From contig RPFO01000167.1 in assembly GCA_009746045.1 (NCBI GenBank), positions 1,874,011 through 1,938,010 on the forward strand: DNA of 64,000 nucleotides. The letters run 5' to 3'. Of this stretch, positions 2,362-64,000 are shown in pieces; position 1 is the stretch's first letter; every line of letters begins with the position of its first letter. The notes under the pieces were generated by a model. That model was given only the letters and a program-made list of their open reading frames with translations. It was not told where the DNA came from and did not search any database. The position numbers were made by a program, and so were the translations under genes. Origin of the DNA: Mesostigma viride (lineage: Eukaryota > Streptophyta > Mesostigmatophyceae > Mesostigmatales > Mesostigmataceae).

Positions 2362-3400
2362 GTGACACTAGTCGTGCACTGGTTGTTGCCCAATGCCCAG
2401 CCCCCTCCCGGACTTGCCTCGCCCTCTGCATCGCCGGAGCCTAAACGCAGCCGCCCTGAGGATCCGCCCCCTGCCGAGCCGAGCTGGAAAGAAATCGACT
2501 TTGACGTCACCTCAGCCACATGGTGGACAAACTGCCACGCAGCTCCCACCCGGTTTATGACCGCCGTGTTCTTCGGGTCGCGCACCTCGCTAATCTTGCC
2601 CTGTGCCAGCACCTTAACGTCCTCGGTCGCCTCACTCCGCCTGGCCACGTGGACGGTGCTTACATGCCGGATCTGTCCAGCTTCCCCCGCCCCCGCCTTT
2701 GAGCTCCTCGCCCTCTGCTCCGGCCCTCCTTGGGCGCTCTGTCGCCAAGATCTCCAGGGGCTCCCACTTCCATGCATTCCACCTCCGAAATCATGCTCCA
2801 TGGCATCTGACAACCAGGCCCACGCGCAGCACGTGACACCCGGCCTCGCCGCAGATGTGGCGGCCATGGGCGGCAAGCTGGCTGCCGAGCTTCCCCTCCT
2901 CTCCTCCACCACCACCGCCACCTCCAAGCTCCTCGCCTCCACCTCCACCACCACTGACGCCCTCACCGCCCAGCTCCTCGCCATCGACAAGCGCCTGCAG
3001 GACAATTGATGCCATAGCCATCGAATGCTTGCAAAACACCGCAGGCATCACTGCCGGCAGGCGGTGAAGGACATCGCCGCCCGGCCAGCCCCTCAGTGCT
3101 GGCCCTGCTGGCGATGCCCCTCGATCCCATCCAGACCTGGGCGCAGCCATGCTGATGAACCACACCATGCACCACCACCACCTCTGCCATCGCCGCCCAG
3201 CTTAAGCAGCAGACGCTGGACCTCCGCGAGGAGGCCGAGCTCGACAAGCGCAGCCTTAATTAATGTCATAGTCAAGCACTTCGACCAGAATACCCAGAGC
3301 AGGCGGCAGGCTCGCATCCTCCGCCTGCAGGACAAGCTCCATGCGATGAAAACCACTATTCCACCCCCCTCCCTCCCCTCGGGCGCTGTCTGACCGTTTC
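2362..3400 (+). pseudogene. LINE ORF1 remnant
   Basis: The longest frame (2362-3009) gives a proline-rich start followed by a Ser/Thr/Ala-rich helical segment ending in LLAIDKRLQDN. A shifted frame continues with a polar stretch rich in Arg, Gln and Glu (3190-3340). Homology to the ORF1-type sequence on the minus strand at 43160-44735 supports it: both share the segment DVAAMGxxLxAELPLL. ORF1 proteins of L1-like elements bind the element RNA. No complete frame remains. Confidence 0.5.
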
Positions 3401-6313: not shown

Positions 6314-6846
6314 AGTTTGACACGGTCCTCTGGGAGGCTCTTTGGCCCATCAGTGATCCTAGCTCCGGATCGGGTACCACCAGCGTTTATTGCTGCCATT
6401 CGTCTGACTGTGTGAGGGCGCTCACAGGCAGTAGTGCGGACTGCGGAAGGCACCACCCCACCATCCCCCCTTCACCACGGGGTGTGGCAAGGTTGTGTCC
6501 TAGGTCCCCATATCTGTTCATTATTGTCGTGGATCACGTCATGCCGGCCGGGCACGTGCGCGCTTTACTGCTCTTAACGTGTTCGAGCCTGGCTTGGACA
6601 TTCTTAACGAGCGCGAGCACGGCGGGGGTGGCACTGGCTACCGCCTGGCCGACCTGATTTATGCGGATGACACCACCCTCATCGCGCGCCCCAAGCACAT
6701 TCACTACCTGGCTGGACTGTCTGGGCTTGGAGGCGAGGGTGGTGGGGTTGGAGATTAGTGTCAACACTGAGGCGATGGTGATTGGGGCCTCCAGTCGCCC
6801 GCCGCTGCCGCGCCTGCTCGACGGGACGGAGGTCGACCCGTACTCG
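6314..6846 (+). pseudogene. LINE reverse transcriptase, 3' portion
   Basis: After the nested insertion the reverse transcriptase continues in several frames: a segment equivalent to HHGVWQGCVL (about 6478-6505) and LADLIYADDTTLIARPKH (about 6648-6700), the latter holding catalytic YADD motif C. GLEISVNTEAMVIGASS follows. The closely related and better preserved version on the minus strand at 47545-48676 confirms the reading. At 6897 the sequence jumps into the 3' tail of another element. Confidence 0.75.
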
Positions 6847-6896
6847 TGATCGCTTCAAGTTGGTAAGGAGCATGCTCCCCGACACCACCGACTGAT

Positions 6897-7106
6897 GTGG
6901 ACATCCGCATATAGATAGATGTTGTAGTTAGCATGCTGTTAGATTCATGTAGTATGTAGCTGATGTAGATAGATTAGACCGGTAGGACTGTTTGCACCCA
7001 CCCATCCATCCATCCATCCATCCATCCATCGGGGTTAATGCTCCGTGACTCCCCAACGGGAGCACGAGTCTAAATAATTAATTAATTAATTAATTAATTA
7101 TAATTA
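6897..7106 (+). mobile_element. short LINE 3'-end fragment
   Basis: This contains the generic 3' untranslated motif (gttgtagttagcatg, then gattagaccggtagga), a (CCATC)n run at about 7005-7029, the CAAC-loop hairpin at 7040-7069 and (TTAA)n to 7106. The same string recurs at 7660-7817 and 33240-33374, so these are separate 3' ends of one family. Confidence 0.7.
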
Positions 7107-41401: not shown

Positions 41402-42620
41402 GGCCGGCTCCTGCCCCTTTTGGCAACGGCAGCGCCTGACCTCCTGGACCCCAGCAGCCCTTTGCCCTTCGTCACCGCCATCCAGGAGGCCTATGCTGAG
41501 ATCCAGCAGGCCTGTTCTCCCGTCCGTGCCGCTCAGGCGGTACAGCGCCACCTCCCTCGCGGCACTCCCTCGGTCGCCTCCGTTCAATCTCCCGCCGCAT
41601 TCCCTGCTCGCGTCATCGATAAACACCAGAAAACCTACGCGGGTATTCTGCACACGGCTGATTGGATTGCTCTTTTCGCGGACCTCAACGCCCAGGGACG
41701 TGCGTGGCTGTTCTCGCTTTCCTTGCGGAGTGTGGGCTCGGCGTACCTTCGTGCTCTTCCCATGGCCCCCCCATTCGCCTTGGCTCCCAGCCACTACTCG
41801 GTGGCGCTCCGGCACCAGCTATTTGCCCCGCAGCCTCTTGTTCCGGCCGGGCGGCCTTGTGGTAGCTGTGGGCAGCCGCTGGATCCCACGGGGACTCACT
41901 ACCTTGCCTGCATGGGGGGCCAACAGAATCAGAATTGGTATTTGTATTTGCACACTGTCCTCCTGACGGTGGTGCTCGCCATGATTCGGTCGGTTTTCCC
42001 CCACGCGAACATCCGGTCCGAGGATGCGGATGGCGCTGCCTTCTATTCCCCCAACCACCGGCCTGACATCGTGGTGCTGGACTTTGAGGGGGTGGCCGGC
42101 ATCTACTTATTGACGTTTCGGTGGCGCGGCCCTTGGCTCTTAGCCACGTGGCTGGGGCCTCCCTCACGGCAGGTTACACGGCGGACCGGGCGGAGCGGGC
42201 CAAGCTCCTGGCCTACGGCGACGTCGGGCACCATCGTGTGGTGCCCTTTGTCCTGGAGGAGTTTGGGGCCATGGGGCCCCTGACCTCCGCCTTCTTCAAG
42301 GAGTGTTGCCGGCTCCGGGAGGACCGGCTGGACCTGGAGGGCCAGCGGGCCCCATGGTCGGCGCGGACCTGGACGTCATATTGGCGTCAGCGCTTGTCGG
42401 TGGCGCTGACTCGGGCCATGGCTGACATCATGCTCCGCCGTACGCGGGCTGATTTTGCGGTGCAGCAGGGCTATTAGGTTCCTCCCGTTAGGCGTTTCCA
42501 TTGGTCTTATCGTAGTATAGAGCTTTGACATGGCTCTGTATATAGGTTTATAGCTGGGCGTTTGCTTTGGTTTGAGTGATTTCACTCTGCTGTAAGTAAT
42601 TATATTTTTAATATATATGG
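41402..42620 (+). mobile_element. REL-endonuclease retroelement fragment, copy 2
   Basis: This is nearly identical to the unit at 322-1536, from the first bases (ccggctcctgcccc) to the 3' tail ending in taattatatttttaatatatat. Its coding frame is continuous where copy 1 is broken (about 41553) but loses one base in a G run at about 42085-42091, just before the RPD...IDVSV catalytic segment. Between the two copies the ancestral frame is clear. The stop is at 42475-42477. Confidence 0.75.
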
Positions 42621-47378: not shown

Positions 47379-48686
47379 ATGCCTCAATTAAAAATTAAAT
47401 TAAATTAAATTATAACATGTCTCCGTTGGGAGATCATGTAGCACATATTCCAGGTTGGATGGGTGGTGTGGAGGCCTGGAGGGAGCCGCGTAATCGAACT
47501 AACCTAACTCTAAGCTATAGCTAGTCTAGAAAAGCCTATCTACGCTACTCATCAAAGCGGCTCCTCCTTTTGGGGGGAGGCGGCTTGCCCACAGGGGCTG
47601 GCGTGTGCGCCTTGACAATCTTCTTCCACCGCGTCTTGTCCTGCATGGCAGTCCAAAGACGGGAGAGAGAGTGGATGCGGTGCTCAAACTGGGCTGGGAC
47701 CACTAGGTCGTCCAGCAACATCTGGGTATAGGTCATGGCATGTTTCCCTACCTTTTTAGGAATGTTCTTGGGGCCAGGCCAGGTCAAAATGTGCCGCCCC
47801 GGTTGGCCGAGCCGCTGGGGACCGGCCAGACCAAGGGCGGTGTCGACCTGGCTGGTGCGAGCAAGATGTCCTACAAATGCTATCCTACGCTGCCTAATCT
47901 CGTCCGAAATACGCGCCGGCATACCGTGATACAAAGACTCTAATGACCTACGCTGAGAATACCCGACATTCAGGACCTGTCGGAGCATCCGGGTTACCGT
48001 GCCGTCGAGCTTGGCTGCCAGTGTTGCGGCCGTGAGTGTCCATGCCTCGGCGCCATACGTGAGCACCGTGAGGACGAGGACCTTGAAGAGCATGCGCTTG
48101 CGGTGCTCGTCCAGGCCCTTGGAGCGCCAGTAGGTGTTGAGCGAACGGAGCTTGGCCCAGGAAAGGCCGATGCGGGTGTCCACATCGTCGGCAGTGTCAG
48201 GAAGCCAACTCCCCAACAGCTTGAAGCGGTCGCGGAATGGGACCGCCGTCCCATCGAGCAGGCGCGGCAGCGGTGGGCGACTGGAGGCCCCAATCACCAT
48301 CGCCTCAGTTTTGACACTAATCTCCAACCCCACCGCCCTCGCCTCCAGGCCCAGACAGTCCAGCCAGGTCTGAATGTGCTCGGGGCGCGCGATGAGGGTG
48401 GTGTCGTCCGCATAAATCAGGTCAGCCAGGCGGTAACCCGTGCTAACCCCGCCGTGCCCACGCTCGTTAAGGATGTCCAAGCCTGGCTCGAACCCCTTAA
48501 GAGCAGTAAAGCGCGCACGTGCCTGGCGCATGACGTGGTCCACGACAATAATGAACAGGTATGGAGACAGGACACAACCTTGCCACACCCCGTGGTGAAG
48601 GGGGAATGGTGGGGTGGTGCCTTCCGCAGTCCGCACTACTGCCTGTGCGCCCTCATACAGTCGGCGAATGGCAGCAATGCCTCAAT
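47379..48686 (-). mobile_element. 5'-truncated LINE with 10-bp target duplication
   Basis: The element body spans 47389-48676 and is flanked by atgcctcaat at 47379-47388 and 48677-48686. At its 3' end (left) is the AT-type hairpin tail (about 47410-47440) and an (AATTT)n run. It is the youngest-looking LINE copy in the window because its frame is unbroken. Confidence 0.85.
47545..48676 (-). CDS. LINE ORF2 fragment: reverse transcriptase palm and C-terminus
   Basis: The frame is open from the truncation point to the stop at 47545. It covers RRLYEGAQAVVRTAEG, HHGVWQGCVLSPYLFII (motif B region), LADLIYADDTTLIARPEH with catalytic YADD, the thumb (FKLLGSWLPDTADDVDTRI), LTYGAEAWTL and a long C-terminal tail ending PPPPKRRSRFDE. 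There is no zinc-binding zf-RVT signature like the one at 28 kb, so at least two LINE lineages are present. Lacking the endonuclease and the first palm motif, it cannot transpose by itself. Confidence 0.85.
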
Positions 48687-48990
48687 CAACCAGCAATAAT
48701 AACACAATGTTCTAACCCTGCAGGTTCACATCACCCCGTTAAAAAACCAACCAACAAAACAGAACTGTAAGCGCAAACACGAAATACAGCAAAGCCATAA
48801 GAGAAATGGCTTGCAGCCATCCTCATAAGCATGGCTAGCATTCTTGAGAGCACATTGATTGTGATGCATAGTGGCTGTGATCCACAAATCTACAGAGAAC
48901 ACACACGTAAGCATAGCTTACACATATACAAAGCATGGCCAGCAAGAGAAGTATAGCCACCTTGTTTCCCAGCACGTTGAGACGCACGGC
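48687..48990. other. last host-like segment before the viral block
   Basis: Composition and short motifs match the intergenic DNA to the left. At 48991 the sequence enters the viral palindrome, so the host-virus junction is placed at about 48990. Confidence 0.5.
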
Positions 48991-49259
48991 CAGCAACTAC
49001 GTGAGCTACCCCCCAGAGCCTCTGCAGCCCCCAGTCCCCCTAGACCCCCTAGACCCCTTGGACCCCCCGGAGCCCCCGGTCCGAACAGAAGTCCTGTAAT
49101 CTCCACCGCCGCCGTCGCCTGTCCCGGCCCTGGGAGGCGGCGAAGGGGCAAACGAGGGGGGAGAAGGTAATCCACCTCCGACCGGCGAGAGGGGCCGGAG
49201 AGGCCCCGCCAATTTCACTCGCCCCCCGCCCCGGCCCTCCCGATGGGCGACGCTTGCTT

Positions 49260-49411
49260 GGATTCTCTTGCACTACTTCTTTTTTAGACTCTTTCAAAAA
49301 TAATTATATGGGTAATGAAAAATTGCAAAGGGTATAGGCTATATATAGGGCTATATATACAGGAATAATATTTCCCGGGGTGGCTGAAAAAGAAGTCGTG
49401 CACGAGAATCC
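49260..49411. promoter_or_regulatory. paired inverted 26-bp motif around an AT-rich core (left arm)
   Basis: A 26-base motif beginning ggattctcttgcactacttc at 49260-49285 is repeated in reverse at 49386-49411 (reverse complement ggattctcgtgcacgacttc). The 100-base core is AT-rich with tataggctatatataggg. The same architecture occurs at 61603-61747. A bidirectional promoter, a replication element or a MITE-like insertion are all possible. Confidence 0.75.
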
Positions 49412-49631
49412 ACTCCACCTCCGATGGTCGGGGGCGGCGGGAGAGGTGGCGGCAGGTTCGCTCGCCCCCCGTCCCGGGTCCGTCGCGCCCCGAGTCTGGA
49501 TGTGTTTGAAACGTCCTTTTCCCTCCTGGAGGGGCGGCGCGGGCGGGTGGGGGGTCGAGGGTGGATGAGAATGCGTGGTTTCGGTCGGGCTTCTTTTGGG
49601 CTCGGATCCGTTCTGGACAGTCTGCGTCCCG

Positions 49632-49695
49632 GCGCCCCCCGGGCCGGGGTTGGGAGGGGGTTGCGCTTAGGGGGCGGGAAATAAAATGTGGGGGT
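49632..49695 (+). promoter_or_regulatory. duplicated viral promoter, upstream of zinc protein gene (left arm)
   Basis: This 68-base block continues into the start codon at 49696. It is repeated with about seven differences before the next gene (50199-50266). Shared core: tgcgctta, a G-rich spacer, then aataaaatgtgggggtatga. The T/A-rich aataaaatg just before the start is in the position expected of a compact viral promoter. Confidence 0.7.
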
Positions 49696-50178
49696 ATGAG
49701 TATGGAGACCTCCGCCTGCTGCGAGTGCGGACGCGCCCTCCCGATGAACGGCCCCCCTTCCTTCTGCGCCGAGTGCCGGCGGGCGATCCCGCCGCAGCCC
49801 AGGACCCTGGAGGACATCCTGACCTGCCACGACTGCCGGCGCGGCATCCCGCTGGAGGGCTGGGACCCGGACGACAAGGAGGACACGCGCGCGTACATGC
49901 GGGGTCTGGTGCCGGCCATGTGGCCCGGCCAGGAGAGCGGCCCGTGCCTGGTCTGCCGCGGGTGCCACGCGAAGGAGGCGAGGCAGGAGGAGTGGGAGGA
50001 CCCTCCGCCGTTGCTGGACGAGCCGTTGAGCGCGGACGCCATGCTGATCCTCTGCATCCTGAAGGGCGTGAAGCTGCCCTCTAAGTACGAGTGGCAGACC
50101 CCTCCGGCCATGTGGGTGGTTCGCGACGGGGGAGTGGTGCTGGCCAGCCCGGCGACCCTGGGCCCGGCGGGTGAGTGA
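49696..50178 (+). CDS. cysteine-rich zinc-ribbon protein, left copy
   Basis: The protein has 160 residues if translation begins MSMETSACCECG directly after the repeated promoter. An upstream in-frame start at 49561 would pass through the promoter block and is not preferred. Cysteines occur as C9-x-C11, C24-x2-C27, C44-x2-C47 and C84-x2-C87-x2-C90, enough for two zinc ribbons. The C-terminal third is plain and ends GPAGE. An identical gene lies in the opposite arm at 52865-53347. I do not recognise a named family. A nucleic-acid-binding or protein-adaptor role is a guess from the zinc sites. Confidence 0.75.
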   Translation: MSMETSACCECGRALPMNGPPSFCAECRRAIPPQPRTLEDILTCHDCRRGIPLEGWDPDDKEDTRAYMRGLVPAMWPGQESGPCLVCRGCHAKEARQEEWEDPPPLLDEPLSADAMLILCILKGVKLPSKYEWQTPPAMWVVRDGGVVLASPATLGPAGE

Positions 50179-50198
50179 CGGATGCGAGTCTGGTGCCC

Positions 50199-50252
50199 GC
50201 GCCCCCCGGGCCGGGGTTAAGAGGGGGCTGCGCTTACGGGGGAGGGAATAAA
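50199..50252 (+). promoter_or_regulatory. duplicated viral promoter, upstream of HNH gene (left arm)
   Basis: This is the second member of the promoter pair. It starts 21 bases after the previous stop codon and ends with aataaa directly at the next ATG (50253). The copy shares gccccccgggccggggtt and ctgcgctta with the first. Confidence 0.7.
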
Positions 50253-51181
50253 ATGTGGGGGTATGATAACAGCGGCGACGGGCGAGAAACGGAGATGGCA
50301 ACCCCGGAGTTCTACGTGACGAACGACGCGGAGGACAAGTGGCGCCAGAGGGTGGGGTCTTCGGTGCAGACCTTCAACTCTGCCCTGCGGTACAAGTGCG
50401 CGAAGACGGGGAGGGGGTTCAAGCGTTTCCGCGAGTCGAAGGCCCGCGACATGTGGGACGGCAAGTGCGCCAAGTGCGCGACCCCGATCCGCTTCCACTC
50501 GTCGGAGGAGGTCCCCCGCATGGGGATCCTGGTGCGTTATCTGGTCCCGGACGGCGCGGGGCTGTCTCTGACCGAGTCGGCGACGGGCATGCCCCCGAGT
50601 GGAGGTGCGGGCGTTGCAGGGTGGGCCCTCTGGAATCGGAGTACGACGAGCTGAAGCACCTCAGGATGGAGGAGGAGTACCTGCGCGCCCGGAAGGGGCT
50701 GCCCATCCCGGACGACTCCCCGCCCGTGCTGCCCTTCCCGGAGGCGGCACCGGCCGGGAAGCGGCCCAGGAGCCCTTGCCAGCATTACGGGGAGTGCCCC
50801 CCCGATGTCGACCCCGCGGTGTGGTCGCACGTGAAGAAAGCGTTCTACGGCGTCCAGTCGAGGGTGAAGAGCGACCTGCCCCTGAGCTGGCAGTCCACGC
50901 CCCACGGGGAGCGAGACCTGTCCCCGCGCCTGCTGGAGGCCGTCAGGAAACTGGAGAGCCAGGAGTGGCACTGCGGCCACTGCGAGGGGCGGATGTCGCT
51001 GGACTCCCCTGAGCTCGCCCCGTCCCCCGACAAGACGGACACGTTCGACAGGACGTACTTCCCCGACAACTACAGGTGGCTGCACGCGGGGTGCAACCGG
51101 GCCAAAGCCGTGGACGACTCCATAGACCAGTGCAGGCGCAGGATGGCGGAGTACGAGAAGCTGCCGGACCCCGTGGAATGA
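50253..51181 (+). pseudogene. HNH-type zinc nuclease, left copy, frameshifted
   Basis: This is the same gene as 51861-52790 but with five instead of six Cs at 50592-50596. That throws the reading out of frame at GMPPEWRCGRC. The frame up to 50654 gives the N-terminal zinc ribbon. The remainder (to 51181) encodes the nuclease end. Whether this is real decay or a run-length error is open; see the mirror copy for the function. AATAAA follows at 51197. Confidence 0.85.
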
Positions 51182-51254
51182 TAAACGCCGTATGCTAATA
51201 AAGACACCCCTCGTCCAATGCCACGTGTCACCTCATCGCTAGACAGTCCCAAAG

Positions 51255-51405
51255 CAAAAAGGGCCAGGTTCGCCAGCACAAGGGGCTGGTTTCAAACAGG
51301 GTGGGCCGGGTTTGACAGCATAAGAGGCTGGTTTCAAACAGGGTTCGCCAGCATAAGGGGCTGGTTTCAAACAGGGTGGGCCGGGTTTGACAGCATAAGG
51401 GCGGT
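51255..51405. repeat. 37-bp-type tandem repeats next to the palindrome centre (left arm)
   Basis: Units alternate between ggctggtttcaaacaggg followed by tgggccgggtttgacagcat and a shorter form with ttcgccagcataagg. Four to five units lie here and are mirrored at about 51640-51785. Short tandem repeats close to the terminus are a common feature of hairpin-ended viral genomes. Confidence 0.85.
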
Positions 51406-51637
51406 GCGGTTACTGGAAAAAATATCTAACCCCATGGTATAGGATATACCTGAGAGTCTAGGCCCCTACCGGCCCTGTCCAGGGCCTGCCATGGGACATG
51501 TCCCCGGGACTGATCAGAAACGTTTCTGATCAGTCCCGGGGACATGTCCCATGGCAGGCCCTGGACAGGGCCGGTAGGGCCTAGACTCTCAGGTATATCC
51601 TATACCATGGGGTTAGATATTTTTTCCAGTAACCGCA
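51406..51637. other. palindrome centre, candidate joined hairpin telomere
   Basis: About 115 bases on each side of 51521/51522 are a nearly perfect inverted repeat. They include a smaller internal palindrome (ggtataggatatacc, 51436-51450), AT-rich atatttttt, and at the very centre gatcagaaac|gtttctgatc with no loop. One run differs by a base (ggcccct versus ggccct). A resolved virus would have a closed hairpin here. Confidence 0.8.
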
Positions 51638-51860
51638 CCGCCCCTTATGCTGTCAAACCCGGCCCACCCTGTTTGAAACCAGCCCCTTATGCTGGCGAAC
51701 CCTGTTTGAAACCAGCCTCTTATGCTGTCAAACCCGGCCCACCCTGTTTGAAACCAGCCCCTTATGCTGGCGAACCGGCCCTTTTTGCTTTGGGACTGTC
51801 TAGCGATGAGGTGACACGTGGCATTGGACGAGGGGTGTCTTTATTAGCATACGGCGTTCA

Positions 51861-52790
51861 TCATTCCACGGGGTCCGGCAGCTTCTCGTACTCCGCCATC
51901 CTGCGCCTGCACTGGTCTATGGAGTCGTCCACGGCTTTGGCCCGGTTGCACCCCGCGTGCAGCCACCTGTAGTTGTCGGGGAAGTACGTCCTGTCGAACG
52001 TGTCCGTCTTGTCGGGGGACGGGGCGAGCTCAGGGGAGTCCAGCGACATCCGCCCCTCGCAGTGGCCGCAGTGCCACTCCTGGCTCTCCAGTTTCCTGAC
52101 GGCCTCCAGCAGGCGCGGGGACAGGTCTCGCTCCCCGTGGGGCGTGGACTGCCAGCTCAGGGGCAGGTCGCTCTTCACCCTCGACTGGACGCCGTAGAAC
52201 GCTTTCTTCACGTGCGACCACACCGCGGGGTCGACATCGGGGGGGCACTCCCCGTAATGCTGGCAAGGGCTCCTGGGCCGCTTCCCGGCCGGTGCCGCCT
52301 CCGGGAAGGGCAGCACGGGCGGGGAGTCGTCCGGGATGGGCAGCCCCTTCCGGGCGCGCAGGTACTCCTCCTCCATCCTGAGGTGCTTCAGCTCGTCGTA
52401 CTCCGATTCCAGAGGGCCCACCCTGCAACGCCCGCACCTCCACTCGGGGGGCATGCCCGTCGCCGACTCGGTCAGAGACAGCCCCGCGCCGTCCGGGACC
52501 AGATAACGCACCAGGATCCCCATGCGGGGGACCTCCTCCGACGAGTGGAAGCGGATCGGGGTCGCGCACTTGGCGCACTTGCCGTCCCACATGTCGCGGG
52601 CCTTCGACTCGCGGAAACGCTTGAACCCCCTCCCCGTCTTCGCGCACTTGTACCGCAGGGCAGAGTTGAAGGTCTGCACCGAAGACCCCACCCTCTGGCG
52701 CCACTTGTCCTCCGCGTCGTTCGTCACGTAGAACTCCGGGGTTGCCATCTCCGTTTCTCGCCCGTCGCCGCTGTTATCATACCCCCACAT
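51861..52790 (-). CDS. HNH-type zinc nuclease, intact right copy
   Basis: The frame gives 309 residues from MWGYDNSGD (52790) or 295 from MATPEFYVT (52748). There is an N-terminal ribbon (GKCAKCATPIRF), a second C-x2-C (WRCGRC), a helical charged middle, and a C-terminal module WHCGHCEGRM...FDRTYFPDNYRWLHAGCNRAK. A C-x2-C followed by a (S/F)(L/D)DR-type turn, an Asn and a CN.AK helix is the layout of zinc-bearing HNH/endonuclease VII-like folds; here the second zinc pair is reduced to a single Cys with His (HAGCN). The protein at 54799-55506 is a paralog. The role is likely DNA cleavage or recombination near the genome ends, inferred only. An AATAAA lies just beyond the stop. Confidence 0.75.
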   Translation of the reverse strand: MWGYDNSGDGRETEMATPEFYVTNDAEDKWRQRVGSSVQTFNSALRYKCAKTGRGFKRFRESKARDMWDGKCAKCATPIRFHSSEEVPRMGILVRYLVPDGAGLSLTESATGMPPEWRCGRCRVGPLESEYDELKHLRMEEEYLRARKGLPIPDDSPPVLPFPEAAPAGKRPRSPCQHYGECPPDVDPAVWSHVKKAFYGVQSRVKSDLPLSWQSTPHGERDLSPRLLEAVRKLESQEWHCGHCEGRMSLDSPELAPSPDKTDTFDRTYFPDNYRWLHAGCNRAKAVDDSIDQCRRRMAEYEKLPDPVE

Positions 52791-52844
52791 TTTATTCCCT
52801 CCCCCGTAAGCGCAGCCCCCTCTTAACCCCGGCCCGGGGGGCGC
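52791..52844 (-). promoter_or_regulatory. viral promoter before HNH gene (right arm)
   Basis: This is the mirror image of 50199-50252, with the same aataaa-atg junction at 52790. Confidence 0.68.
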
Positions 52845-52864
52845 GGGCACCAGACTCGCATCCG

Positions 52865-53347
52865 TCACTCACCCGCCGGGCCCAGGGTCGCCGGGCTGGC
52901 CAGCACCACTCCCCCGTCGCGAACCACCCACATGGCCGGAGGGGTCTGCCACTCGTACTTAGAGGGCAGCTTCACGCCCTTCAGGATGCAGAGGATCAGC
53001 ATGGCGTCCGCGCTCAACGGCTCGTCCAGCAACGGCGGAGGGTCCTCCCACTCCTCCTGCCTCGCCTCCTTCGCGTGGCACCCGCGGCAGACCAGGCACG
53101 GGCCGCTCTCCTGGCCGGGCCACATGGCCGGCACCAGACCCCGCATGTACGCGCGCGTGTCCTCCTTGTCGTCCGGGTCCCAGCCCTCCAGCGGGATGCC
53201 GCGCCGGCAGTCGTGGCAGGTCAGGATGTCCTCCAGGGTCCTGGGCTGCGGCGGGATCGCCCGCCGGCACTCGGCGCAGAAGGAAGGGGGGCCGTTCATC
53301 GGGAGGGCGCGTCCGCACTCGCAGCAGGCGGAGGTCTCCATACTCAT
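52865..53347 (-). CDS. cysteine-rich zinc-ribbon protein, right copy
   Basis: This is the mirror copy of 49696-50178 with the same 160-residue reading (MSMETS start at 53347). No frame difference between the copies was seen. Two identical copies at a palindromic end give a double dose if the locus is transcribed. Confidence 0.75.
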   Translation of the reverse strand: MSMETSACCECGRALPMNGPPSFCAECRRAIPPQPRTLEDILTCHDCRRGIPLEGWDPDDKEDTRAYMRGLVPAMWPGQESGPCLVCRGCHAKEARQEEWEDPPPLLDEPLSADAMLILCILKGVKLPSKYEWQTPPAMWVVRDGGVVLASPATLGPAGE

Positions 53348-53411
53348 ACCCCCACATTTTATTTCCCGCCCCCTAAGCGCAACCCCCTCCCAACCCCGGC
53401 CCGGGGGGCGC
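53348..53411 (-). promoter_or_regulatory. viral promoter before zinc protein gene (right arm)
   Basis: This is the mirror of 49632-49695. Confidence 0.68.
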
Positions 53412-53631
53412 CGGGACGCAGACTGTCCAGAACGGATCCGAGCCCAAAAGAAGCCCGACCGAAACCACGCATTCTCATCCACCCTCGACCCCCCACCCGC
53501 CCGCGCCGCCCCTCCAGGAGGGAAAAGGACGTTTCAAACACATCCAGACTCGGGGCGCGACGGACCCGGGACGGGGGGCGAGCGAACCTGCCGCCACCTC
53601 TCCCGCCGCCCCCGACCATCGGAGGTGGAGT

Positions 53632-53783
53632 GGATTCTCGTGCACGACTTCTTTTTCAGCCACCCCGGGAAATATTATTCCTGTATATATAGCCCTATAT
53701 ATAGCCTATACCCTTTGCAATTTTTCATTACCCATATAATTATTTTTGAAAGAGTCTAAAAAAGAAGTAGTGCAAGAGAATCC
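53632..53783. promoter_or_regulatory. paired inverted 26-bp motif around an AT-rich core (right arm)
   Basis: This is the mirror of 49260-49411, including gctatatatagggctatata in the core. Confidence 0.75.
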
Positions 53784-54033
53784 AAGCAAGCGTCGCCCAT
53801 CGGGAGGGCCGGGGCGGGGGGCGAGTGAAATTGGCGGGGCCTCTCCGGCCCCTCTCGCCGGTCGGAGGTGGATTACCTTCTCCCCCCTCGTTTGCCCCTT
53901 CGCCGCCTCCCAGGGCCGGGACAGGCGACGGCGGCGGTGGAGATTACAGGACTTCTGTTCGGACCGGGGGCTCCGGGGGGTCCAAGGGGTCTAGGGGGTC
54001 TAGGGGGACTGGGGGCTGCAGAGGCTCTGGGGG

Positions 54034-54128
54034 GGTAGCTCACGTAGTTGCTGGGAAGGCTTTAGGGTGGCTTTCACCGTGGCTAAGGCACCCCTAAACC
54101 CTTCCCAGCAACTGCGTGAGTGACCCCC
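54034..54128. repeat. imperfect hairpin at the inner edge of the palindrome
   Basis: gctcacgtagttgctgggaa (54039-54058) pairs with ttcccagcaactgcgtgag (about 54101-54119). Stems extend through tttaggg/ccctaaa. The palindrome's similarity ends inside the left stem, at 54053, and the same stem sequence forms the host junction at 48991. Confidence 0.8.
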
Positions 54129-54395
54129 TCTTTTCCCCCTGTTCCCCCCTGCGTGTCCCCCCCGTTCCGCGCCGAGTGCTTGGGGACCCCGCAGCGTGTC
54201 CCCCCCGTTCCGCGCCGAGTGCTTGTCTGTTTCCCTGTTCCCCCCGCGCGTGATTGTCTGTCCCCCGCGCGCGAGTCCGTGATCGAGAGTACGAGTGTGC
54301 GAGTGTGTGAGTACGTCGGCAAGTCCGCTGGCGGTGTGCGTGCGTTTATGGTCGCGCTAAAATAATCTCGTCGTTCGGCATATCAGTGTCGCGCC
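54129..54395. repeat. GC-rich leader with a 41-bp direct repeat
   Basis: gcgtgtcccccccgttccgc with gccgagtgcttg occurs twice (about 54152-54183 and 54193-54224). A ccccgcgcg motif follows, then gtgcgagtgtgtgagta. There is no gene. It may be the promoter region of the following plus-strand gene. Confidence 0.6.
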
Positions 54396-54844
54396 ATGAT
54401 GCATCCGGGTTGGTTGTCCGAGGCGCGTCTGATGTGCGAGTTCGTGGGCGCGTGCGTGCAGCCGTCGTCGCACATCCAGGAGTGGCCGGCGGCGGGCAAG
54501 CTGGCGGACGCCTTCAACGCGTTCCTCGCGGCGAAGGGTCTGCCCCCGTACGCCGCGTCCCGTCTGGCGGGCCCCTGCCCGGTGGCGGACGACCTGGCCC
54601 TGTGGTCCGGCGTGCTGGCGGGCAAGGGGGGCGTGCTGATGCACGTGGCGGGGGTCGCTGGGGGCGAGAGCGGGGGGTGGTACTGGGCGCAGGCGGCCGG
54701 CACCCTCCTTGGATCCGCCTCCCCGGGGCCCACGCCTATACGTACTATCATGGGAGCGATCCCGAGGATCTCGAGGAGACCGAATCGCCTCTTTACATTC
54801 ACCCCCCCGAGCGACAGCCTGCGCGGCGGAGACGCAGGCGGTAG
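54396..54844 (+). pseudogene. unidentified viral protein, one apparent frameshift
   Basis: From ATG at 54396 the frame gives MMHPGWLSEARLMCEFVGAC, a helical segment (KLADAFNAFLAAKGLPPYAA) and DDLALWSGVLAGKGG. Near the four-base runs at 54721-54728 the sensible frame changes: one extra base would lead to AHAYTYYHGSDPEDLEE and an Arg-rich end at 54844. The helix pattern FVGAC...L..AF..FL loosely recalls the DNA-binding segment found after viral D5-like ATPases. I do not rely on this. The 3' end overlaps the convergent HNH gene by 46 bases. Confidence 0.5.
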
Positions 54845-55506
54845 AGGCGCAGTCCGTCGCGCAGGCGCTTTGCGTGGTTGCAGGCGAAGCACAGCAGGGC
54901 CGCGTTCCGCCCGCAGTAGCTCCTGTCGGCCGGGTCGCGCCTGTCGAGCGAGGGGCGGTCCCCCTTCCTGGCGCGGGGTCCGATGTCCAGCGGCTTGCGA
55001 CACAGGGCGCACCGCGGTCGGCGCAGGAGCGAGCGGTAGAGCGCCGTGACGTGCGCGGTGCCCAGACACGGCCTGGCCCCGTCGGCCCGCATGCGCGCGT
55101 TGGCGTTCCTGGCCATCTTCTCTGCGCGCGCCCACGCGGCGGGGCGCACGCCCGTCGGCCTGCGGATGGGCGGGGGGCGTATGCCGGAGTCTGCCTTCAC
55201 GGGCCTGGGCAGGCCGCACCTGCGCGCCCTGTCCCTGGCCTCCACCAGCTCGTCGAAGAGGGGGGCGAGGGGCAGGCGGGCGCAGGGCCAGCAGGTCCAC
55301 GCGCCGGGGCGGCCGAACACGGCCGAGCGGTCTCGCAGGGAGATGGGGCTGGCGCACCTGCTGCACCTGCCCGTCCAGGCCCGGGCGGCCCGGGCGAGGG
55401 GCACGGGGCGGAAGGTCCGTCCGGCGCTCGCGGCCACGTAGGCGCTCTGGTCGTTGTACTTGCGCACGAGCTCTTCCATGGTGTGCTGGCGTCTGTCACG
55501 TTCCAT
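54799..55506 (-). CDS. HNH endonuclease with two zinc ribbons
   Basis: The protein has 235 residues. An N-terminal ribbon is C48-x2-C51 with C72-x2-C75. The C-terminal nuclease module is C166-x2-C169, SLDRRD (187-192), N201 and C206-x2-C-N210-x-AK, the standard arrangement of zinc-stabilised HNH nucleases common in giant viruses and phages. The N-terminal GRCSRCASPISL and the overall plan match the palindrome-arm protein (GKCAKCATPIRF), making the two genes paralogs. The start codon at 55506 is the first ATG in frame. Likely a DNA endonuclease; target unknown. Confidence 0.82.
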   Translation of the reverse strand: MERDRRQHTMEELVRKYNDQSAYVAASAGRTFRPVPLARAARAWTGRCSRCASPISLRDRSAVFGRPGAWTCWPCARLPLAPLFDELVEARDRARRCGLPRPVKADSGIRPPPIRRPTGVRPAAWARAEKMARNANARMRADGARPCLGTAHVTALYRSLLRRPRCALCRKPLDIGPRARKGDRPSLDRRDPADRSYCGRNAALLCFACNHAKRLRDGLRLYRLRLRRAGCRSGG

Positions 55507-56108: not shown

Positions 56109-56666
56109 TCATTCCTCCCCGAGGGCGTCGATGAAGCGGGCGATCGCGTCCTGGGGCACGACCTTGTAGCCCCTGGCCTTCATGTAGTCCCTCCTCTGCT
56201 TGTAGTTGCGGACGAAGTCGGGGTAGTTGGAGGGTATGCTCGCGAGGTTGGCCACGCGGGGGATGTCGATGTCCCTGGGGTCCGCGACCTCGCGCACGTG
56301 CCTGCGCAGGTCGTCGGCGCGCGTGACGTACTTGTCCACCTCGCGCAGGAGCAGGCGGCGGTAGGCGGCGGGGTGGTCCTCGAGGCGGATGAAGAACTTG
56401 TGGTTCGCCCTGGGGGGCGCGTGCAGGCCGACGAACACGAGCGGGCGGTCTCGCTCCCTGTCCCTGACGAGCTCTCGTATCATGCGGTTCACGAGGGCTC
56501 GCTTGTTGACGGCCCTCTGCCCGTCTCGCTTCCTCTCGTCGGCTATGTCGTCGGCCTTGGCCCACAGGTCGTCCGTGTCCACGCACTTGGCCTTGATCCT
56601 GAGCATGGAGCAGAGGAAGGTCTTGCCCGATCCCGGCACGCCCTCCACGTGCACGATCGCCGACAT
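56109..56666 (-). CDS. P-loop NTPase / nucleotide kinase-like protein
   Basis: The protein has 185 residues starting MSAIVHVEGVPGSGKT, so the Walker A motif (GVPGSGKT, 9-16) is almost at the N-terminus, as in small-molecule and nucleotide kinases. CVDTDDLW looks like a substrate-binding strand. RPLVFVGLHAPPR is a hydrophobic strand with possible Walker B function, and an Arg-rich lid-like helix (ADDLRRHVREV) follows. The open frame extends upstream to 56957, but that stretch overlaps the divergent gene at 56745, so the 56666 start is preferred. The exact substrate is unknown. A 78-base intergenic region separates it from the divergent neighbour. Confidence 0.75.
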   Translation of the reverse strand: MSAIVHVEGVPGSGKTFLCSMLRIKAKCVDTDDLWAKADDIADERKRDGQRAVNKRALVNRMIRELVRDRERDRPLVFVGLHAPPRANHKFFIRLEDHPAAYRRLLLREVDKYVTRADDLRRHVREVADPRDIDIPRVANLASIPSNYPDFVRNYKQRRDYMKARGYKVVPQDAIARFIDALGEE

Positions 56667-61421: not shown

Positions 61422-61602
61422 TGAATCGTTGAATGAATATTATTCCATTTCTTTAATCCAATCTGTTTTCATTCGCGACCCCCCGTGTCTACTCATGCAT
61501 GCATACATATCACATCCACGCTCGACAGGCGGCGAACCTGGACCGGCCATCGACCGAGTGGGGCGGTTCCTGTCCGGGTACAGCCACGCCTCGAGTTTGG
61601 TT

Positions 61603-61747
61603 GGATTCTTTTGCGCGACTTCTTTTTTGCACGCCGGCCTGAATAGTTTTTCATATATATGTGCATGCACCTGTAGAATCATAGAGGGTCTATAGCCATA
61701 AATTTATTTTTAGATTCATCAGAAAAAGAAGTAGTGCAGGAGAATCC
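61603..61747. promoter_or_regulatory. paired inverted 26-bp motif around an AT-rich core (internal locus)
   Basis: Left motif 61603-61628 starts ggattcttttgcgcgacttc. The right motif 61722-61747 reads ggattctcctgcactacttc in reverse complement. The 93-base core contains tatatatgtgcatgc and gggtctatagccataaattt. It is the third occurrence of the element seen in both palindrome arms, so it is not peculiar to the terminus. Confidence 0.75.
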
Positions 61748-61904
61748 AAGCCAGGGCCGAGCAGCGGGCGGGCGGGGGCGGGGCGCGAGTTGGATTGTCG
61801 ACCCCTCTCTAGGCGCCGCCGCAGGCCGACTGCGGATGTGCTTCTCCCATCCAACGGCAGCCGTTACGAGGTGGCGCTGGGTCGTCAGCACCTGACAGGG
61901 CGGG

Positions 61905-61996: not shown

Positions 61997-62740
61997 ATGG
62001 ACACTGCGGACGGGACACGGGTAAATTCGCTAGGGGGGGCGGACGCGGTGGACAGGGCGTGGGCGGAGAGGACCTACGCGGACTACCTGTCCTTCAGACG
62101 CGAGGAGGACGAGTTCTGGGTGTTCTCTGTCAAGCCCCAGGACGACATGGAGGTGGACGCGTCCAAGGACGTCCGCGTGCGGAAGAGCGACGGACGGGTG
62201 CAGCTCAAAGCGTTCACACGCGCAATGTCGAATGGCAAAAAGGATGTCACGGACTGGACACGATCGTCCTTGGCCGATGAGTGGCGCTGTCACCTGGAGT
62301 TTGTAAAAACTTCTGATAATGACAAGAGAGGCACGTGGAGTGATCGTGCGCCCTTGCCTGAACTTATAAGGTGGATAAAGAAATCTCCCAACAACCGGGT
62401 CGAGCTCGAGATCCAACACCGGCTGTCCAGCTGTGTCAATGGGGAGTGCGAGGTTCAGTGCCGTTACGGGTACATCGACATCGTCACGTACGACCCAAAG
62501 TCCATCATCGAGGTCAAGGACATGCGCAGTTGGATGACTGGTGTTGGTCAACTCCTGGCGTATGGGATGGACTTCCCAGAGCATGCCAGGAGGCTGCATC
62601 TGTTCAGCTCTAAGAAGAGCGATTGGTTCACTACTCATCAGCACGCTCTCATCAAGGAAGCGTGCGAATCTCAAGGCATCCAGCTGACGTTGGATGCTAG
62701 CGTGTTCAATAAGAGACCCTACATGGATGGACCTCATTGA
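61997..62740 (+). CDS. KilA-N-like N-terminus fused to a PD-(D/E)XK nuclease
   Basis: The protein has 247 residues from MDTADGTRVN. Residues 38-95 (EFWVFSVKPQDD, DVRVRKSDGRVQL, DVTDWTRSS) align with the start of the KilA-N protein that follows (KFWIFRLK, DIKVRKSDKKIL, DFKEWWRWG), so they are read as the first half of a KilA-N DNA-binding domain. Residues 130-205 form a nuclease core: ELEIQHRL (acidic helix), YGYIDIVT with D161, IIEVK with E172 and K174, then GVGQLLAYG (Q185). The spacing D-x10-E-x-K followed by a Q-containing helix is the PD-(D/E)XK pattern. The frame is intact. I infer a sequence-targeted DNA nuclease. Confidence 0.75.
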   Translation: MDTADGTRVNSLGGADAVDRAWAERTYADYLSFRREEDEFWVFSVKPQDDMEVDASKDVRVRKSDGRVQLKAFTRAMSNGKKDVTDWTRSSLADEWRCHLEFVKTSDNDKRGTWSDRAPLPELIRWIKKSPNNRVELEIQHRLSSCVNGECEVQCRYGYIDIVTYDPKSIIEVKDMRSWMTGVGQLLAYGMDFPEHARRLHLFSSKKSDWFTTHQHALIKEACESQGIQLTLDASVFNKRPYMDGPH

Positions 62741-62815: not shown

Positions 62816-63844
62816 ATGACAATGGCTCTGAGCGTGACATCCCCCCCTTTCACACATGCATTGTTTGCGCTGAGTAGCGAGAATGACAAGTTTTGGATAT
62901 TTCGACTTAAGGCTGCTGCCGGCTTTCGAGTTGATATTACTAAAGACATCAAGGTTCGCAAAAGCGATAAGAAGATCCTAGGAAAGGACCTGTGCCATGC
63001 AGCATCAAACGGCACAAAGGATTTCAAGGAGTGGTGGAGGTGGGGCCATGTTCAGAGCTATGTGAGGACCCTTCACAAGCGTTTGTCGAATGGGGGTGAA
63101 TTCACGCCCATGTGCACAGACACTTATGAGGCCGTAAAAAATGGACCACTAGAAGACCGTGGCATCTGGATCCACCCCAAGCTGGTAAACAGGCTGGCTG
63201 CCTGGATTAGTGACGAATTTGAGCTGGAGGCGATGGACTGGGTGGACCGCATCATGGCGGGGGACATCTCGATGATGGGTGTGGTGCGCGACGCCCACGA
63301 CGCGGTCCACGGCACGAGCACCACGGTGGCGGTGCTGACCCGACCGGGCAACGGTCGCACGAGGCCGGACTACGTGGCGCCTGTGCGCGAGTGCGACCCG
63401 ACCCTGCGCCTGCGCGCGAAGGACACGCAGCACAGGCTGGCGGACCTGGTGAGCTCGGTCGTCCCCAAGGAGCGCGTGGGGAGCGTGATGGCGTTCCTGG
63501 GCGACAAGACCTGCGAGGCGGCCACGGGGATGAGCGCGTCGGCCTTCAAGGAGCTGAACGGCGTGAGGGCCGGTAGCGCCAGGGACGCGATGGACGACGG
63601 TCAGCTGGCGAACGCCTGGTTCTTCATGTACAAGGTCATGGACCGGGCGCCGGACAAGGACCTTCACGAGGCGGCGGTCGAGGTGAAGCGGGCGATGGCC
63701 GCGTTCGTGAAGCCGCCGGAGGGGCCCACCCCGGCGGGCATCGTGGACAGGAACAGACGGGAGATGAGGGATGACTTGCTCTTGACCCGGCCCCTGAACC
63801 GCGACCGGTTCTCGAGGGTGGGGCCCAAGAGGGTCAAGATCTAG
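62816..63844 (+). CDS. KilA-N domain protein
   Basis: The protein has 342 residues. KilA-N spans about residues 24-150. It includes the closing signature GIWIHPKLVNRLAAWISDEF (116-135), which matches the typical G-x-W-xH-P-x-L-x3-A-x-W-IS-x-x-F. KilA-N is a DNA-binding fold frequent in large DNA viruses and phages. The C-terminal 190 residues (after PDYVAPVREC) are helical and unrecognised, including GDKTCEAATGMSASAFKELN and a basic end (RVGPKRVKI). The gene lies 75 bases after the nuclease fusion and shares its N-terminal half, so the pair arose by duplication. G/C usage rises strongly in the 3' half, from about 63230. Confidence 0.88.
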   Translation: MTMALSVTSPPFTHALFALSSENDKFWIFRLKAAAGFRVDITKDIKVRKSDKKILGKDLCHAASNGTKDFKEWWRWGHVQSYVRTLHKRLSNGGEFTPMCTDTYEAVKNGPLEDRGIWIHPKLVNRLAAWISDEFELEAMDWVDRIMAGDISMMGVVRDAHDAVHGTSTTVAVLTRPGNGRTRPDYVAPVRECDPTLRLRAKDTQHRLADLVSSVVPKERVGSVMAFLGDKTCEAATGMSASAFKELNGVRAGSARDAMDDGQLANAWFFMYKVMDRAPDKDLHEAAVEVKRAMAAFVKPPEGPTPAGIVDRNRREMRDDLLLTRPLNRDRFSRVGPKRVKI

Positions 63845-64000
63845 CTGTCGGTGGGGAGTTCGTTGGCGCGACCCCGCCCCTCTCGACAGCGCGGACCTTG
63901 ACACTGTGCGCTTAGATATTCGTGCGCGCTTGAACGCATGCTGATTGCTCCGTTTAATCGGAATCGAGTTTCATTTTTATCCCATCCCGGTGTATCATCG
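63845..64000. other. right window edge, no complete gene
   Basis: This non-coding sequence follows the KilA-N gene. The viral block evidently continues beyond the window. Confidence 0.5.

Follow-up and report, generated by a model that had tools for sequence, protein, structure and literature searches.

The window analysed here, by which we mean the whole stretch of 64,000 nucleotides from Mesostigma viride (C1502:1874011-1938010), contains a 5-kb palindrome at positions 48990-54054. Its left arm (48990-51521, plus strand, read from edge to tip, 2532 bp) and its right arm (51522-54054, minus strand, read from tip to edge, 2533 bp) meet at 51521/51522 with zero bases between them, and the two arms are 99.7% identical in inverted orientation. 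The centre is exactly symmetric for 58 bp on each side (51464-51579), a segment that we propose represents the fused tips of two telomeres. These properties agree with a first-pass annotation of the same DNA, which had described a spacer-free palindrome with this centre and arms differing by substitutions as well as run lengths. Seven differences separate the arms: 2 substitutions and 5 length changes of one base each, four of these length changes being in C/G runs. Five of the seven lie no more than 338 bp from the centre (P ∼6e-4 if differences were distributed uniformly) and three fall inside tandem repeats; consensus errors in such repeats are a conceivable source of the differences near the centre. 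The 120-nt stretches flanking the centre showed unremarkable single-strand folding (z of −0.23 and −1.70).

The annotation had also assigned the same two genes and a set of sub-terminal tandem repeats to each arm, and both assignments proved correct. The tandem repeats lie at 51261-51401 in the left arm (plus strand), with a mirror copy at 51640-51781. Arm gene 1 (49696-50178, plus strand; 52865-53347, minus strand; both starts inferred) would encode a cysteine-rich protein of ∼160 amino acids. Arm gene 2 is an open frame in the right arm (51861-52868, minus strand), whereas its left copy (50175-51181, plus strand) is frame-shifted relative to the right one and divided into open reading frames (ORFs) at 50175-50654 and 50339-51181. 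It is related to an ORF at 54799-55506 (minus strand; 26% identity, E 4e-14), to the right of the palindrome. Both arm genes gave only sub-threshold matches in Pfam, and for arm gene 2 we found no relatives in IMG/VR and no match in a phage collection.

Each arm further contains an inverted pair of 26-mers around an AT-rich core of ∼100 bp (49259-49412, with a mirror copy at 53631-53784), and a third copy of this arrangement lies at 61602-61748. The 26-mers occur as pairs only in the viral part of the window; at the same loose threshold the host part yielded a single unpaired match with nine mismatches. The presence of the pair both in the arms and at 61602-61748 therefore ties the arms to the sequence on their right. 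These pairs are a candidate origin or bidirectional promoter, and the pattern had zero exact matches in IMG/VR.

The DNA on the two sides of the palindrome is of different character, as the annotation had claimed in placing host-like sequence on one side and unique viral sequence on the other. On the left we found Nup98 (PF04096, 6e-39), Nup96 (PF12110), a plant-type KARI and, at 47545-48636, a reverse transcriptase ORF labelled LINE-like (long interspersed nuclear element). Both best solved relatives of the KARI are plant enzymes, the second being 1qmg, which we take to be the spinach enzyme; the type of this KARI points to a host from the green lineage. On the right lie two KilA-N ORFs (61997-62740 and 62816-63844, both plus strand; one match at 4e-15, the other, at 0.0012, below the cut-off), and guanine-plus-cytosine (GC) content rises: of the ten 1-kb rows that begin at 54001, nine have 61-73% and the remaining one 52.5%. 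The change point in GC does not coincide with the palindrome edge; it is located at 49414.

Recurrence of the palindrome and its fixed boundaries

A search of the 440-Mb, 2243-contig assembly returned at least 82 tip-proximal arm matches, which grouped into at least 27 places including the window. We examined the 26 other places (L009-L034), several of which lie in Mb-sized contigs. The spacer-free centre was present in 23 of the 26, and exact central symmetry extended for at least 91 bp in 22 of them and for 12 bp in L020. Two divergent places also follow this pattern: L033 and L034 match the window arm at only ∼75% in the tip-proximal 1.7 kb and at 92-97% further out (80-81% over the first 1250 bp when substitutions only are counted), yet both have spacer-free centres.

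Within a place, by comparison, the two arms are nearly the same. Over the first 1250 bp we counted 0-1 substitutions in all 24 fetched two-arm places, with 0-4 gaps everywhere except L020, which has nine; the window's own arms have 2 substitutions and 4 gaps. A slightly longer multiple alignment gave 8 within-place substitutions for L020, 4 for L026, 3 for the window and 2 for L015. In several instances two places carry identical arms, so the case for co-evolving arms is carried mainly by changes present in both arms. Such changes include a tip substitution found on both sides in L010, altered repeat numbers in L028 and L029, and the absence of the gene-1 stretch in 22 of the 26 places, where it is missing from both arms wherever both are readable.

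The outer boundary of the palindrome is fixed as well. Terminus A (CCAGCAACTACGTGAG; 48990-49005, plus strand) forms an exact boundary between flank and element. In 22 of the 27 places the flank meets it at one and the same base (CCAGCAAC...), and 18 distinct flanks are represented among them; four pairs of places have a common flank and may be haplotypes. The edge was not readable in L016 and L019, where the flank-side arm stops at ∼2.2 kb, in L021, in L030 (contig end) or in L031 (N run); the edge seen in L016 is the spacer rather than a junction and was excluded from the 22. Base counts over 19 flanks, one of them being this spacer, revealed no motif adjoining A that was evident by eye. One candidate target motif, TTCCCAGC at 48966, was rejected, as it is a partial match to the edge motif and 160 of 4895 host windows score as high. 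GC content was compared between the two sides in 22 fetched places, with L014 (no flank), L021, L030 and L031 left out, and in every one it was higher on the viral side (0.63-0.69) than on the opposite side (0.44-0.61). The flank side is not always plain host DNA, for a capsid match at C392:15462-16025 lies ∼1 kb beyond a flank-side edge; here one viral element appears to lie beside or inside another.

On the viral side the arm is followed by a 50-bp spacer (54055-54104, plus strand) and then by terminus B (CCAGCAACTGCGTGAG; 54105-54120, plus strand), which has a 16-bp terminus in common with A apart from one difference. The spacer sits between inverted termini, and the three parts together form a strong imperfect hairpin at 54031-54128 (z −9.96) that reads A′ (ending GTTGCTGG), spacer, B (starting CCAGCAACTGCG), with the inner edge of the right arm falling within it. 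At the threshold used, the only other strong ungapped hairpins in the whole window were a microsatellite, the palindrome centre and the mirrored arm pair. The spacer was present in all 26 fetched places, in the same orientation as in the window in 24 (with one extra base in L016) and flipped in L009 and L010. Its sequence is otherwise unchanged even where the arms are only ∼75-81% alike, and in L033 and L034 it is identical.

Target duplications and the two ends of the viral body

A 21-base pattern built on terminus B matched the genome 76 times, 71 of these exactly. Ten inverted pairs of B sites, 33-116 kb apart, delimit what we call bodies. We read 20 of the 76 sites (12 at elements of interest and 8 unpaired), and 19 of them join other, non-spacer DNA exactly at CCAGCAACTGCG. 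The exception is C1878, where B′ at the body's other end is followed by the spacer, A and ∼255 bp of arm. The sequence found at both host junctions, at A and at B, is a short inverted terminus, CCAGCAACTRCGTGAG, and not a long repeat.

Both ends could be read in seven elements drawn from the ten B pairs, the remaining pairs missing a readable end. All seven are bounded by a 2-bp target duplication (GG, AA, TA, TT, CC, GG and TA), whereas two-base agreement occurred in 4 of 42 mismatched combinations of ends; in C1790, which lies in a (GTT)n run, longer duplication matches are also possible. In the window the duplication is GG, with its left copy at 48988-48989 and its right copy directly after C1502:2026982, so that the window's element spans C1502:1923000-2026982 (103,983 bp).

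Some insertion sites have features of their own. The flanks of L009, L013, L020 and L046 contain the same words (gatgacaccatgggagcc) by eye, which suggests insertions into copies of one host repeat, and (GTT)n microsatellites are the insertion target in three places (C1790, C1878 and C1502:803995). At C1468:4591038-4601646 (L021, L046) a flank joined to B is followed by body-like DNA and a one-armed palindrome tip, an arrangement that looks rearranged or partly deleted.

The recurrence and the duplications bear on two rival explanations of the palindrome. Were it an assembly or fold-back read artefact, the location of four of the five length differences in C/G runs would be understandable, and such artefacts are known for hairpin-ended viruses, according to the available part of one report (PMC7248222). 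The first-pass annotation had held that the arm differences argue against a fold-back read without excluding one, and the concern is addressed by 27 places with different flanks and seven matching duplications; with several places in Mb-sized contigs and a fixed edge as well, the artefact explanation is largely refuted and we regard it as very improbable. The annotation had further proposed a joined viral end at the boundary between virus and host, and what stands of this proposal is a head-to-head join, located at that boundary, that records entry into the chromosome. A chance origin, in which two viral ends were ligated and the product then broke and was repaired into host DNA, would suit the single place in the window. 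It cannot yield the same edge base 22 times, a spacer-free centre 23 times and 2-bp duplications in seven of seven elements; the edge at 48990 is a recurrent fixed terminus and the palindrome a regular part of the integrated form, and we consider a chance origin extremely improbable.

Beyond terminus B, the places have a stretch in common and then diverge. The inner part of the terminal repeat that is common to the other body end (54105-54692) is 588 bp long in the window and in the places of class II described below; in 11 places of class I it is ∼370 bp long, after which other sequence follows, and the match to the window resumes 3167 positions from the tip. Further inward the places split into two mutually exclusive sequences. 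Class I (n = 14) comprises the window, whose class I body sequence runs from 54693 to the end of the window at 64000 and continues to C1502:2026982, together with L011, L013-L016, L019, L020, L022-L024 and L030-L032. Class II (n = 13) comprises L009, L010, L012, L017, L018, L021, L025-L029, L033 and L034. L016 and L020 gave no match in the class comparison itself and were assigned to class I from the far-end test that follows.

If classes I and II represent the two ends of a single body, each element must carry the opposite class at its far end. We examined 300 bases from the far end of each of three elements, and the prediction held in all three. The far ends of the window's element and of C887, both class I, match all 13 class II places at 98.7-100% identity and no class I place; the far end of the class II element C1:1477236 has matches in 11 of the 14 class I places (94-99.7%) and in none of class II. 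The class II sequences, which diverge from the window at 3171 from the tip, had been a candidate for another virus strain, an explanation rejected once they were identified as the other body end. Both ends of the body are thus found beside the same B, spacer and arm, which is the arrangement of a genome with terminal inverted repeats at both ends, and the palindrome is retained in either of two equivalent orientations.

Origin of the palindrome

We conclude that the palindrome is probably the place where two telomeres of a large DNA virus, or of a virus-like element, have joined, and that the integrated form retains this junction at one of its ends. The free form would be a linear genome with terminal inverted repeats of ∼3 kb, each consisting of the tip, the 2.53-kb arm, A, the 50-bp spacer, B and a further ∼370-590 bp. 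Its tips would be joined through hairpin ends, or by replication round the hairpins, to give a circle or concatemer, with spacer and B next to the palindrome on both sides. An integrase would then make two cuts, one at A to one side of the palindrome and one at the body's other end, at B′; the spacer between these cuts would be lost, and the remainder would be inserted with a 2-bp target duplication. As the two sites would be equivalent, the palindrome could end up on either body end, the other choice giving the mirror class, and cutting at B on both sides could produce a palindrome-free form such as that seen in C1776. Of the elements of this model, the fixed termini, the 2-bp duplications, the two equivalent orientations, the spacer-free centres and the likeness of the two arms of a place are observed, whereas hairpin closure, the circle or concatemer and the enzymes are inferred. 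A fuller version, which we put forward tentatively as possible rather than probable, is that these elements form a new lineage of ∼100-kb integrating algal DNA viruses without a family B polymerase, in which the fused telomeres are the integration substrate. Two mirror-image attachment sites would flank the junction, either of them usable; the conserved 50-bp spacer would be discarded, and the perfect 5-kb palindrome at the edge could be resolved again into a linear genome.

Several observations weigh against a telomere junction. Hairpins of poxviruses and chloroviruses have a mismatched, incompletely paired terminal loop, and the centre of the palindrome is without one (58 bp exact in the window); we dropped the idea of a poxvirus-like mismatched loop because the centre is exactly symmetric. 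Three of the 26 other places are without a complete spacer-free centre, in that L021 is missing the left arm, L022 is missing 87 nt of one tip and L031 has 14 symmetric bases before an N run. Because some places have common flanks or identical arms, the 27 places do not represent 27 independent events. The stretch that identified the far end of the class II element is absent from the window, L022 and L023. One element, C1776:3539-75853, is bounded by B on either side and by a TA duplication but contains no palindrome; it shares its far flank with C1107, while the near flanks of the two differ, which is unexplained. Lastly, a search that covered tyrosine recombinases turned up neither an integrase nor a telomere resolvase: 150 of 824 PF00589 candidates were scored, and none of these 150 lies in the mapped bodies. 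The tyrosine recombinase candidates are mostly near-identical long frames resembling retroelements. Three of the four strongest tyrosine recombinase matches are on C2011, which may be a bacterial contaminant.

The existence of a body-only element such as C1776, together with the likeness of the 16-bp termini A and B, which have one difference, would also be compatible with the palindrome being an independent mobile element or satellite that has A and A′ as its boundaries and hitch-hikes on a virus body bounded by B and B′. None of the 22 edge-mapped palindromes has non-viral DNA on both sides, in a set that is less than a complete inventory of terminus A. Moreover, the spacer is present in all 26 fetched places, and in C1878 the spacer and A are found at the second body end too. 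We therefore consider a hitch-hiking satellite distinctly improbable.

The main rival holds that the genome is always circular and that the palindrome is one of its standing parts, serving for example as an origin or a recombination site, with arms that gene conversion keeps alike; such a genome would integrate in the same way with no telomeres being involved. This explanation accounts for all of the genome data equally well, and the paired inverted 26-mers with their AT-rich core in each arm could be the origin. We nevertheless judge it unlikely. Near-perfect symmetry at the very centre, as seen in 23 of 26 places, is to be expected where each round copies one arm from the other, and is less expected of a static repeat. 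Long spacer-free palindromes are generally unstable in vivo, and the combination of sub-terminal tandem repeats with long inverted repeats is typical of linear viral ends.

Viral gene content and relation to known systems

The annotation had raised the question of a giant virus, and two genes typical of that group (Nucleocytoviricota), those for family B DNA polymerase and the double jelly-roll major capsid protein, were looked for. Family B DNA polymerase (PF00136) had 11 matches genome-wide, all on C2222, C1646 and C667 and none on palindrome-bearing contigs, in a search that could miss a strongly diverged polymerase. The NCLDV-type capsid family PF04451 gave at least 150 matches genome-wide, from the scoring of 150 out of 507 candidates; many scores are identical, the matches often fall in two neighbouring genes, and from these counts the genome appears to be loaded with endogenous viruses. 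Matches on C446, C1585, C1 and C47 lie 14-97 kb from B termini, and there is none within the window's element among the matches listed; the link between capsid genes and the palindrome-bearing elements is only suggestive. Nine ORFs from the bodies of L014, L021 and L025 yielded one Pfam match above the cut-off, to KilA-N (3.9e-11). In the window, a P-loop ORF (56109-56666, minus strand) had a match below the cut-offs, and neither it nor the KilA-N ORFs had relatives in IMG/VR.

Two repeats were seen in the host part of the window. A stretch at 48170-48678, overlapping the reverse transcriptase ORF, is 89% identical to 6389-6910, and a 1.2-kb repeat is present at 325-1542 and 41403-42618 in copies that are 99.3% identical. 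Copies of the latter are also inserted in the viral-side arm of L016 and L019.

There are few systems, two of them algal as far as the accessible literature indicates, in which it is understood how large DNA viruses enter eukaryotic chromosomes. The M. viride elements are present in many copies with sharp ends, from which termini, target duplications, the integrating form and the ageing of the provirus can be read from sequence. They suggest that junctions between the telomeres of a linear virus, once fixed in a eukaryotic chromosome as near-perfect palindromes, can be inherited. A literature search covering titles and the beginnings of abstracts, with subscription papers mostly outside its reach, found no description of a fused-telomere palindrome at a provirus edge, and the word "palindrom" is absent from the main text of PMC12210455, PMC12455990 and PMC10675990.

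The closest parallels are found in other algae. According to the available parts of two reports, phaeovirus proviruses of Ectocarpus are large DNA viruses integrated in an alga, for which circular and linear forms have been proposed, and they integrate at a fixed CC (CG in Feldmannia), with a tyrosine recombinase implicated (PMC13236599, PMC12993054). Phaeovirus nanopore reads turn back at a palindromic, telRL-like site (PMC13236599, as far as its accessible text goes), a likeness that adds to that of algal integration. In contrast to the fixed CC or CG described there, the 2-bp duplication in M. viride is variable (GG, AA, TA, TT, CC), the 50-bp spacer is lost and a 5-kb palindrome of fused arms lies at the provirus edge. 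Punuivirus proviruses of Chlamydomonas have large terminal inverted repeats, target duplications and a retroviral-type integrase, again judging from the available portions (PMC13236599, PMC12993054). They resemble the present elements in being integrated, in having inverted repeats at both host junctions (here a short terminus) and in their target duplication (here 2 bp, in seven of seven elements). Where those large repeats are terminal, however, the long repeats described here are joined together at one end.

Chloroviruses are not known to integrate, and the imperfectly paired loops of chloroviruses differ from the exact centre found here in chromosomal DNA. The chlorovirus PBCV-1 is nevertheless comparable in having a linear genome with terminal inverted repeats that fold into hairpins, and in its long-read assemblies, as described in the accessible part of the report, inverted duplications at each terminus doubled the genes of the terminal ∼2.5 kb and were judged by the authors to be artefacts (PMC7248222). 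The likeness thus lies in terminal inverted duplications in assemblies of a hairpin-ended genome. In the hairpin telomere resolvase systems of phage N15, Borrelia and Agrobacterium, as outlined in the sources available, the junctions formed on replication are palindromic, and an enzyme resolves them to give hairpin ends. The palindromic telomere junction would be common to those systems and to the M. viride elements, with the difference that here the palindrome is fixed in a eukaryotic chromosome.

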